64,000 nt of DNA from Prevotella sp. (lineage in GTDB: Bacteria > Bacteroidota > Bacteroidia > Bacteroidales > Bacteroidaceae), in contig JAEEXN010000002.1 of assembly GCA_016291595.1 (NCBI GenBank), forward strand, positions 50,991 through 114,990, written 5' to 3'. The translations under genes and the position numbers were made by a program. How positions within the stretch are numbered: position 1 is the first letter of the stretch; each line of letters opens with the position of its first letter. Shown here one piece after another: positions 9,508 to 53,633 of this stretch. The notes under the pieces are model-generated. The model was not told where the DNA came from and ran no database searches. It was given only the letters and a program-made list of their open reading frames with translations.

Positions 9508-10541
9508 TCATCATCCGTGTCGTGTTCCTCCTACTGTCAATCGCTTTGGCAGTTCTCCCCTGGTTACCCGCTCCGATAGCCGGCAACCTCATATTGATTT
9601 CGCTGGCAGGCATCCCCATTTTCCTCATTGATATCATCCTTTTGCTTACGATTAGGAAAAAGCACAGGCACCGCCATCATCGTCGCCATCACCACCATCG
9701 CGCATGGTACAAAAAACTTAACGGTTGGCGCATCGCATTCATAGTTGTCATCATAGCTTTGTTTCCGATGCTTCGTGGCTATCTGCCACTTTGGGGCAAC
9801 CAGTCAACGCCCAATACAAAACATCCGACACCTCTGACTATTGTTAGCTGGAATGCCGACAAGTTTTCGTTAAGCAGCAAGACTCTACATGCATCATCCA
9901 TGATTATCGATGAATTTAAGCCAGATATCATTTGCATACAAGAACGTCCGCACGACACACTCATGCCTTGGGACAGTATCAAAGCGGCCTTTCCAAACCA
10001 CCCTTACACCATCAAGAACACACGTGAAGACGAGATTCTGAACCTGGCAGTATTAAGCAAATACCCAATCAGTAATCTCCGAGAATACTATTATCCCAAA
10101 TCCTTTAACAAAGCACTTCGGGTTGACCTGCAAGTAGAAGAACGACAGATTCGCCTTTTTAACATCCATCTTGAAACCACCAGCATGGGAACGAAAGACA
10201 TTGAAGATTCTACTCCCGATGCCGTGAAGATGATAAATAAGAGTGTTTCGCGCAATCAGCAAGCCTTTGAACTTTTCGAAGCCGTTGACCGCAGTACAAG
10301 CCCTGTAATTCTTTGCGGTGATTTCAATGACACCCGATGTGGCTATCCTTACCGACTTTTTACTACACAATTAACCGACTTATCCCGTATAAAACCTTTT
10401 TCAAGTTCTTATCAGGGATATGGCAATCTGTTGAAAATCGATTACATCCTATATAGCAAAGGGTTTACCCCCTCCACATACCAACTTATCGAAAACGAGT
10501 GGAGTGACCATAAGATACAAGTAGGCAAGTTGTATTTTTAA
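9504..10541 (+). CDS. Membrane-anchored endonuclease/exonuclease/phosphatase (EEP) family protein
   Basis: N-terminal TMs, His-rich KKHRHRHHRRHHHHR loop, then EEP motifs VSWNAD, IICIQERP, FNIHLETTS, LCGDFND, SDHKI. Confidence 0.85.
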   Translation: MIIIRVVFLLLSIALAVLPWLPAPIAGNLILISLAGIPIFLIDIILLLTIRKKHRHRHHRRHHHHRAWYKKLNGWRIAFIVVIIALFPMLRGYLPLWGNQSTPNTKHPTPLTIVSWNADKFSLSSKTLHASSMIIDEFKPDIICIQERPHDTLMPWDSIKAAFPNHPYTIKNTREDEILNLAVLSKYPISNLREYYYPKSFNKALRVDLQVEERQIRLFNIHLETTSMGTKDIEDSTPDAVKMINKSVSRNQQAFELFEAVDRSTSPVILCGDFNDTRCGYPYRLFTTQLTDLSRIKPFSSSYQGYGNLLKIDYILYSKGFTPSTYQLIENEWSDHKIQVGKLYF

Positions 10542-47892: not shown

Positions 47893-47910
47893 TATTTCCG
47901 GCTTGAAAAC

Positions 47911-47941
47911 TTGCATTCAAGCCAGAATATTTGTATCTTTG
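47911..47941 (+). promoter_or_regulatory. Promoter of candidate sRNA
   Basis: TTG (47911-47913), 20-nt spacer, TATCTTTG (47934-47941). Confidence 0.65.
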
Positions 47942-47947
47942 CAGAAG

Positions 47948-48043
47948 AAAAAAGGTAAGCCTCAGCAACAGGAGCAAACCTTACTGAGTTTGGTTTGCAT
48001 TTCCTCTGCTACTGGATAAGTGAATAGTACTTATCCTTTTTTT
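47948..48043 (+). ncRNA. Candidate ~96-nt small RNA
   Basis: No credible ORF. Promoter just upstream. Stem GCAAACC/GGTTTGC (7 bp). Ends at terminator GGATAAGT-GAATAGT-ACTTATCC + T7. Confidence 0.65.
48014..48043 (+). terminator. Rho-independent terminator of candidate sRNA
   Basis: Perfect 8-bp stem GGATAAGT/ACTTATCC, 7-nt loop, TTTTTTT. Confidence 0.85.
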
Positions 48044-48068: not shown

Positions 48069-48156
48069 CTTTCACTGGAGTGAGAGAACCCTATCACTGG
48101 AGTGAAAGCAATCTATCACTGGAGTGAGAGAATCCTATCACTGGAGTGAGAGTTTC
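48069..48156. repeat. 22-bp tandem repeat, 4 copies (TCACTGGAGTGA dyad core)
   Basis: ctttcactggagtgagagaacc / ctatcactggagtgaaagcaat / ctatcactggagtgagagaatc / ctatcactggagtgagagtttc. Confidence 0.92.
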
Positions 48157-48163
48157 TGAATCA

Positions 48164-48229
48164 GCATTATTCGTACCCAAAACTACCATTATCTGTACCG
48201 CGAACAAGCATTGTTTGTACCCAAAATAA
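48164..48229. repeat. 22-bp tandem repeat, 3 copies (GTACC core)
   Basis: gcattattcgtacccaaaacta / ccattatctgtaccgcgaacaa / gcattgtttgtacccaaaataa. Confidence 0.85.
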
Positions 48230-48280
48230 CGGTTTCCGTTTCTTTGCCTATGCACATACCATTCTGAACAAATATCCAAT

Positions 48281-48322
48281 TTGGACAATTTTTAGGGGTA
48301 TTAGGACAATTTTTAGGGGGGC
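48281..48322. repeat. 21-bp tandem repeat, 2 copies
   Basis: ttggacaatttttaggggtat / taggacaatttttaggggggc. Confidence 0.8.
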
Positions 48323-48397: not shown

Positions 48398-49027
48398 ATG
48401 ACGGTACTGGAAAGCGGATACGTAGTTGATGGAATGAATGAGTTCGAGCGCAATGCCAAGCGTATAATCGACTTATTTGTTGCCATAATCTGCCTCATTG
48501 TATTCTCCCCGTTATTCCTTATTTGTTATATTGCCGTCAAACGTGAGGATGGCGGTCCTGCCATTTTCAAGCAGGAGCGAATCGGTCGTTTCGGTCGTCC
48601 TTTCTATATTTATAAGTTCCGTAGCATGAGAGTTGATGCTGAGAAGGATGGTCCTGCCTTGTATCAGCATGAGCGTGAAACCCGGATGACCAAAGTAGGC
48701 AAGTTCCTACGTGATCATCATCTGGACGAGCTCCCTCAGTTGTGGAACGTCGTGAAAGGAGAGATGGCATTTATCGGACCGCGTCCGGAACGAAAATTCT
48801 ATATCGACCAGATTATGCAGCGAGATTCACGATATATTTATTTGTATCAGATTCGTCCGGGTGTTACCAGCTATGCCACACTCTACAACGGTTATACCGA
48901 CACGATGGAAAAGATGCTGCGCCGATTGGAACTTGACCTGTATTATCTTGAGAACCGTTCCTGGTGGTTCGATTTTAAGATTCTGACCAAGACTTTCATC
49001 AATATTGTTTTCGGAAAGAAATTCTAA
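48398..49027 (+). CDS. Undecaprenyl-phosphate sugar-phosphate transferase (second initiating transferase)
   Basis: AKRIIDLFVAIICLIVFSPLFL; FRSMRVDAEKDGPALY; KFLRDHHLDELPQLWNVVKGEMAFIGPRPERKFYI. Confidence 0.9.
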   Translation: MTVLESGYVVDGMNEFERNAKRIIDLFVAIICLIVFSPLFLICYIAVKREDGGPAIFKQERIGRFGRPFYIYKFRSMRVDAEKDGPALYQHERETRMTKVGKFLRDHHLDELPQLWNVVKGEMAFIGPRPERKFYIDQIMQRDSRYIYLYQIRPGVTSYATLYNGYTDTMEKMLRRLELDLYYLENRSWWFDFKILTKTFINIVFGKKF

Positions 49028-52440: not shown

Positions 52441-52481
52441 CATCGTAAACAAGAATGTATAACTTAAAAAACATAACGATT

Positions 52482-53633
52482 ATGAAGAAGTTTATCCTTG
52501 CCTTGACAGCACTGTTGACCATGACAGTATCGGCCAACGCCATGAGTTACGAACAGGCACGTGAACAAGCTCTTTTCCTCACGGATAAGATGGCGTATGA
52601 GCTGAACCTAACAGAAGATCAGTATGAGGCTGCATACGAAATCAACCTCGACTATCTGATGAGTATCAACAACTACGACGACCTGTATGGATTGTACTGG
52701 GAGCGCCGTAATATGGATTTGAGCTATATTTTGCTCGACTGGCAGTATCGTGCATACTGCGCCGCCAGCTACTTCTACCGTCCTCTCTACTGGGATCGTG
52801 GCTACTGGCACTTCGGTATCTATGCACGCTATCCGCACCGCACCTATTTCTACTTCGGACGTCCCCACTTCTACGTTACCTATCGTGGCGGCCACAGCTG
52901 GCACATGAATGGCGGACGCAGCTGGTATAACGGACGCAGCTGGGGTATGGCACACCGCAATGTATCTGGCGGACGTGGTTTCGGAATGCGCAACGGTTTC
53001 GACCGTGGTGACTACAGAAATGGTGCCCGTGGAATAGTACACAACGACAGAGGCATTGGTTCACGTGGTAACGGCCGTAGCATTGAGAACCGCGGTAGCA
53101 TGAACCGTGGAGGATTCGGCAACAGCCGCAGCATTGAGAACCGTGGAGGCAACATCAACCGCAACATGGAGCGTGGCGGCAGCATGGAGCGCAGTGGCAG
53201 CCGTAGCATTGAGCATCGTGGTGGTGTAGGTAGTCATAGCATGGAGCGTGGCAGTGTTGGCAGTCACAGCATAGACCGTGGAAACAGCAGTATCAACCGC
53301 AGTGGCAGTTCGTTTGGAGGTGGTCGCAGCAGTTCGATGGGTTCCAGCCGTAGCAGTTCGATGGGTTCCAACCACAACAATTTCTCGGCTCCCAGCCACA
53401 GCAGTTTCGGCAGAAGCTCCGCTCGCCAGAGCAGCACTCGCGCCACATCACCCAGCCGCAGCAGCTTTTCTGCCCCCAGCCGTAGCAGCTCGCACAGCAT
53501 GTCGGCTCCCAGCCGCAGCTTCTCACCCAGCCGCTCGTCTAGCTCGAGCATAGGTTCACGCAGTGGCGGTGGCTCTCACGGAGGTTCACACGGTGGTGGT
53601 CATGGCGGAGGTCACTTCGGTGGTCGTAGATAA
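52482..53633 (+). CDS. Secreted low-complexity Ser/Gly/Arg/Asn-rich protein
   Basis: Signal peptide MKKFILALTALLTMTVSANA; Tyr/Trp-rich N-terminal domain; repeats such as SRSIENRGG, SMERG, SRSSSMGS; GGSHGGGHGGGHFGGRR end. Confidence 0.8.
   Translation: MKKFILALTALLTMTVSANAMSYEQAREQALFLTDKMAYELNLTEDQYEAAYEINLDYLMSINNYDDLYGLYWERRNMDLSYILLDWQYRAYCAASYFYRPLYWDRGYWHFGIYARYPHRTYFYFGRPHFYVTYRGGHSWHMNGGRSWYNGRSWGMAHRNVSGGRGFGMRNGFDRGDYRNGARGIVHNDRGIGSRGNGRSIENRGSMNRGGFGNSRSIENRGGNINRNMERGGSMERSGSRSIEHRGGVGSHSMERGSVGSHSIDRGNSSINRSGSSFGGGRSSSMGSSRSSSMGSNHNNFSAPSHSSFGRSSARQSSTRATSPSRSSFSAPSRSSSHSMSAPSRSFSPSRSSSSSIGSRSGGGSHGGSHGGGHGGGHFGGRR

Follow-up and report, generated by a model that had tools for sequence, protein, structure and literature searches.

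Why do three tandem arrays, with units unrelated in sequence but almost equal in length, lie next to one another upstream of a sugar transferase gene in an uncultured Prevotella? A sequence-only reading of the window (the whole 64,000-nucleotide stretch of DNA analysed here) had described arrays of 4x22, 3x22 and 2x21 bp at this site, and both TRF and direct reading bore them out at 48069-48319. By TRF, the first (array A) spans 48072-48152 (period 22, 3.7 copies, score 127), the second (array B) 48165-48230 (period 22, 3.0 copies, score 69) and the third 48279-48319 (period 21, 2.0 copies, score 75), while direct reading located the array A palindromes TCACTGGAGTGA at 48072, 48094, 48116 and 48138. 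The region is laid out as follows:

47900-47923, forward strand: left-edge palindrome GGCTTGAAAACTTGCATTCAAGCC, with a -33-like TTG (47911-47913) in its loop; a terminator-like element edge
47934-47941, forward strand: -7 promoter box TATCTTTG, then CA; of the Bacteroidota type, judged against the general Bacteroidota promoter consensus, and strongly conserved in an alignment of 33 copies
47944-48043, forward strand: leader, ending with an intrinsic-terminator-like hairpin (48014-48036) plus T tract
48069-48152, forward strand: array A, four 18-bp palindromes CTnTCACTnnAGTGAnAG at 22-bp pitch, at 48069, 48091, 48113 and 48135
48165-48230, forward strand: array B, three 22-bp units around GTACC at 48173, 48195 and 48217
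48279-48319, forward strand: third array, 2 x 21 bp GGACAATTTTTAGGGG, near the promoter region of the downstream gene
48398-49027, forward strand: bacterial sugar transferase gene (PF02397), adjoining the arrays

Further along the window, coding tandem repeats of 18, 30, 33 and 12 bp occupy 53161-53625, within a Ser/Gly-rich predicted protein (52455-53633).

When the intergenic region was searched against the own genome (a 3.2 Mb draft in 147 contigs), array A matched approximately 45 other places, often together with array B and with E values down to 1e-30; because some contigs terminate within an A array, a single locus may in a few instances be listed as two copies (e.g. L010 and L016), and detection at no more than two palindrome mismatches under-counts decayed copies. 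Each strand of this genome contains the exact 34-bp pattern of an A pair 90 times, against none in 59 relatives (35 congeners and 24 other members of the order), which together with the dispersed matches argues that array A is not a chance arrangement. Across copies, a promoter-like TTTGTATCTTTGCA is followed by a leader, usually with a hairpin, then by three to five A palindromes and two to eight B units. Arrays A and B are parts of one composite element in which they recur jointly, behind the promoter box and the hairpin-bearing leader, so the three arrays are not independent as first described. In the window, this element starts approximately 130 bp to the left of the arrays, with its promoter box near 47934, and a similar palindrome or T tract marks the left edge of several other copies. 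The third array is a local duplication outside the dispersed element; the same search found no second copy of it elsewhere in the own genome, which ruled out terminal repeats of an insertion sequence, and the orthologous region of the sister species Prevotella sp. UBA2850 has one GGACAAT against the duplication here.

The apparent tie to the sugar transferase did not hold, since arrays A and B recur beside unrelated genes in both orientations and are absent from the gap upstream of the orthologous gene in UBA2850. The 23 proteins adjoining dispersed copies are functionally mixed, and orientation to genes shows no strong bias (the upstream gene runs in the same direction in 20 cases and opposite in 12; the downstream gene in 13 and 12). 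On these grounds we rejected a regulon of related genes.

We found that the near-constant unit length, by contrast with the tie to one gene, is both real and general. A genome-wide period scan, named beforehand by the sequence-only reading as the test that could overturn it, gave a sharp distribution at 21 and 22 bp rather than a broad one. With noncoding DNA defined by open reading frames rather than by annotation, TRF found 10 arrays of period 21 and 15 of period 22 in 450 kb of the own genome, where any other period from 13 to 45 occurred at most three times. Other Prevotella share the peak: 400 kb of noncoding DNA from genome G224 held 16 arrays of period 22, and 753 kb from further Prevotella held 21 of period 22 and four of period 21, with each other period from 13 to 45 found at most five times in these sets. 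Noncoding DNA from other families of the order (273 kb) showed no peak at 22, and coding DNA had no dominant peak there (5 of 38 coding arrays in G224). As a check independent of TRF, 7-mer autocorrelation at distance 22 gave 4.92 matches per kb in the own genome, 10.25 in UBA2850, 7.31 in G224 and 0.00 in E. coli K-12, while mixed congeners peaked at 14, 21 and 22.

The 21/22-bp pitch is common to dozens of unrelated units across Prevotella, and the period goes with the family. Within the own genome, weak matches to B revealed six further arrays of a related 22-bp family without A (B', L049-L054); family C (AGAGnAGCCYTCT), with a 21-bp unit, is likewise scattered over the genome. One family C array at L127:724-777 (TGGAGGAGCCTTCTGTCCTCG x2.6, units 100% identical) lies apparently within coding sequence, where 21 bp would preserve the frame. 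In G053, which belongs to a different family of the order, a 23-bp unit CTCACAAGTTTGTCAGTTTTTAC forms two arrays within 1.5 kb (L146:8231-8298 and 9647-9736), which suggests that the phenomenon exists elsewhere in Bacteroidales at 23-bp pitch, as in P. gingivalis.

Among relatives, the element itself is narrowly distributed. Allowing up to two mismatches, 8 other genomes out of 398 congeners have palindromes that are related to, but distinct from, those of A and share their pitch; in G224, for example, a related palindrome forms 15 pairs of TTACTATAGTGA at 22 bp. In contigs representing one genome per species, three match A, and these come from two MAGs, Prevotella sp. UBA2850 (two A loci in 2.7 Mb) and Bacteroidaceae bacterium RUG.277. 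Neither the plasmid nor the phage collection contained a match to the arrays, and a plasmid or phage origin was rejected. Two further layouts were observed. In G191, the reversed control pattern AGTGANNTCACT recurs at 22-bp pitch 20 times per strand and represents another palindromic array family; in G224, adjacent arrays of the unrelated 22-bp units GTGAAATGATAACTTTACTATA and AAAGCATTGCTCCCGTCCATCC at L080:19520-19676 repeat the stacked layout of the window.

Spacing within the element is strict. Between adjacent intact A palindromes the step is 22 bp in 90 cases and 44 bp in four, and never 21 or 23 bp; the A span is a multiple of 22 in all 31 cases; array B begins a fixed 23-24 bp after A in all 32 cases; and 54 of 57 steps between successive GTAC motifs in B measure 22 bp, a spacing that persists in diverged B units. 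The consensus of 122 A units, CTnTCACTnnAGTGAnAG, has 14 symmetric positions that are 94-100% conserved, while its centre and linker are weakly conserved and close to free. For 34 same-class copy pairs with homologous leaders, identity was 68.5% in the leader, 71.3% at free array positions and 99.5% at symmetric positions, although the under-counting of decayed copies (detection at no more than two mismatches) makes the constraint on symmetric positions somewhat overstated. Since symmetric and free positions differ this much within the same units, whole-unit gene conversion is not the cause. The simplest reading of the conserved symmetry would be purifying selection on a dimer-type A site after dispersal. 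The free linkers are not fully random, and the recurrence of GGATCC and a few other types in similar order shows common descent of whole arrays.

The arrays also stand in a regular relation to the promoter. Measured from the -7 box, the position of the first A unit falls into classes of 61.5, 72.5, 83.5, 94.5, 106, 138.5 and 183 bp, a ladder with a best period of 11.05 (R 0.995, random-class p < 5e-5) that reduces modulo 22 to two classes 11 bp apart and so holds fewer independent classes than seven. Whole-unit gain or loss thus explains part of the ladder. Copies at a promoter distance of 71-74 bp, on the other hand, differ in their leaders yet keep almost the same leader length. In five copies (L011, L017, L006, L013 and L062), the A linkers are reversed relative to the promoter, at a distance of 72 or 94 bp. 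In family B' of UBA2850, AATT recurs at 11, 22 and 33 bp (66, 63 and 45 pairs).

Together, these findings lead us to consider it probable, with some reserve, that the arrays are helically phased protein-binding arrays within MITE-like dispersed elements and act at the DNA level. The element would comprise a promoter with terminator-like hairpins, then three to five dimer-type A sites at 22-bp pitch, then B on the same pitch. Copies of a putative homodimeric DNA-binding protein would sit next to one another on the A sites, all on the same helical face (22 bp makes two turns at approximately 11 bp per turn), and the assembly on A may extend onto B; we infer such a protein and its cooperative binding from the pattern of sites. 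The complex would lie in helical register with the element's own promoter and might control that promoter or form a local nucleoid or topology node, a regulatory or architectural outcome that we likewise infer. Recognition at the DNA level is suggested by the fixed symmetric sequence, the fixed pitch, the promoter register, the lack of strong orientation bias and neighbours without shared function. Transcription from the element promoter is a prediction, and the terminator-like hairpin upstream of A means that element transcripts may end before the array, which in the window copy need not be transcribed. Both the dyad proposed for the core of the first array and the operators phased at two helical turns thereby appear, from the symmetric-position conservation, the 22-bp spacing and the 11-bp ladder, to be the best-fitting of the initial suggestions. 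Sites in helical register with the promoter, as expected of dimer operators, were found, though in fewer independent classes than copies, and a palindromic site with conserved symmetric positions and a free centre was found in family A only. The B units are not clearly palindromic, and the conserved asymmetric centres of families B' and C are not explained by a simple homodimer and speak against phased arrays, as does the fact that a function at each of 45 unrelated sites would be unusual.

The nearest described element by architecture, and the only described case that our literature search found, is the BrickBuilt MITE of Porphyromonas gingivalis, which has 19 dispersed intergenic copies, a 23-nt tandem unit with a leader side, and promoter activity (PMC4596501). 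Both are dispersed, intergenic elements of Bacteroidales near promoter signals, with a tandem unit of approximately two helical turns. However, BrickBuilt has IS5-like terminal inverted repeats, a leader and tail, and one unit family of up to 18 or more copies whose number changes between strains (PMC4596501), whereas the Prevotella element has a 22-bp unit (21 bp in family C), three to five copies, equal in number at three orthologous loci of two sister MAGs, palindromic units and several unit families per genome. No right-hand terminal repeat was noticed in a non-systematic reading of the element copies, whose right boundary is undefined. REP/BIME sequences with RAYT are similar in being short, species-specific extragenic palindromes with tens of copies per genome, but the Prevotella element differs in its strict 22-bp direct tandem pitch. 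Y1_Tnp/RAYT genes are absent from three array-bearing genomes (G024, G099 and UBA2850), with one weak 24-bit match in the own genome, and we rejected dispersal by RAYT/IS200. Plasmid iterons and multi-operator arrays are direct repeats near 22 bp that are bound by dimers on one DNA face next to a promoter. The element would work by a similar logic, but we claim no membership, which would call for a cognate protein, and its approximately 45 chromosomal copies have no replication or partition gene seen beside them. We conclude that this is an undescribed element.

Comparison with the sister species bears on how such elements arise. In the own genome, L020 carries the element together with another 21-bp array; in UBA2850 their place is taken by GGCATCTTTTGCAACACAAAC repeats (TRF period 21). 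An 8-bp direct repeat TTTGCGAG (L020:1377 and L020:1818), possibly a target duplication, brackets the own segment, and UBA2850 has TTTGCAAG once. At the L126 site, UBA2850 holds a 21-bp C-type array; orthologous gaps occupied in the sister species by another array with a comparable pitch thus number at least two. The occupied own sites and orthologous gaps without the element (the window site and L020), the direct repeat, the many dispersed species-specific copies and the BrickBuilt precedent all fit MITE- or REP-like selfish repeats: nonautonomous elements whose arrays or hairpins are recognised by a transposase and have no host function. We consider this account rather unlikely, given the lack of noticed terminal inverted repeats, the missing Y1_Tnp/RAYT genes in three array-bearing genomes and the fact that in copies without function the palindrome should decay at the leader's rate, yet symmetric positions stayed nearly identical. 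Selfish dispersal can nevertheless hold together with phased binding arrays, and we hold MITE-like dispersal and selection on sites to be compatible and both likely: elements would have spread through the genome first, and their sites would then have been held by purifying selection. A repeat generator with a length ruler, in which staggered breaks, templated synthesis or slippage at two helical turns yields 21-22 bp units of any sequence, would also account for the period common to dozens of unrelated units and for the replaced arrays, and near-identical units in L079, L086, L100 and L116 indicate that unit duplication occurs. We think it improbable: each genome has few families, each dispersed, rather than a new unit per site; the period tracks the family (21 in C, 22 in A, B and B'); diverged B units are still strictly spaced; and this early suggestion gained no direct support; and unit number equalled that of the own genome at three orthologous loci (two in UBA2850 and one in RUG.277, from two sister MAGs only). 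The same equality led us to reject a hypervariable minisatellite.

A transcribed noncoding RNA, with the leader and array hairpins as its active part, seems very unlikely to us. The promoter box is conserved, the leader is on average more stably folded than its shuffled versions (mean z -1.75) and the RNA of the window copy reaches z -2.76, but leader stems vary between copies, half of which have z above -1.5, and the terminator-like hairpin of the window copy precedes A. Unlike in an RNA stem, the fixed symmetric positions of the array showed no compensatory change between copies. Pairing of spacer 1 with spacer 3 looked perfect in L026 and failed in L001, L004 and L005, so it was rejected as inconsistent. 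A known RNA family was also rejected, with no Rfam match near a gathering score.

That intergenic arrays of unrelated sequence keep so sharp a 21/22-bp period implies a physical constraint common to them all, in the simplest case the DNA helix, acting throughout a genus that is prominent in the gut and the rumen. As a tentative and rather doubtful extension of phased protein-binding arrays, Prevotella might carry helix-phased arrays that turn over fast. Each genome would have several unrelated families, every one of them scattered across tens of intergenic positions with a pitch of 21-22 bp, and between sister species one family would take the place of another at a given site. The proteins bound to them would be related but quick to diverge, and would organise the nucleoid or control the promoters of the elements. 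The element sequence can serve directly as a pulldown probe. If dispersal dominates, the element would be a new kind of mobile element with an operator array as cargo; if a protein family reads the arrays, they would add a level of chromosome organisation or regulation so far unrecognised in Bacteroidota.
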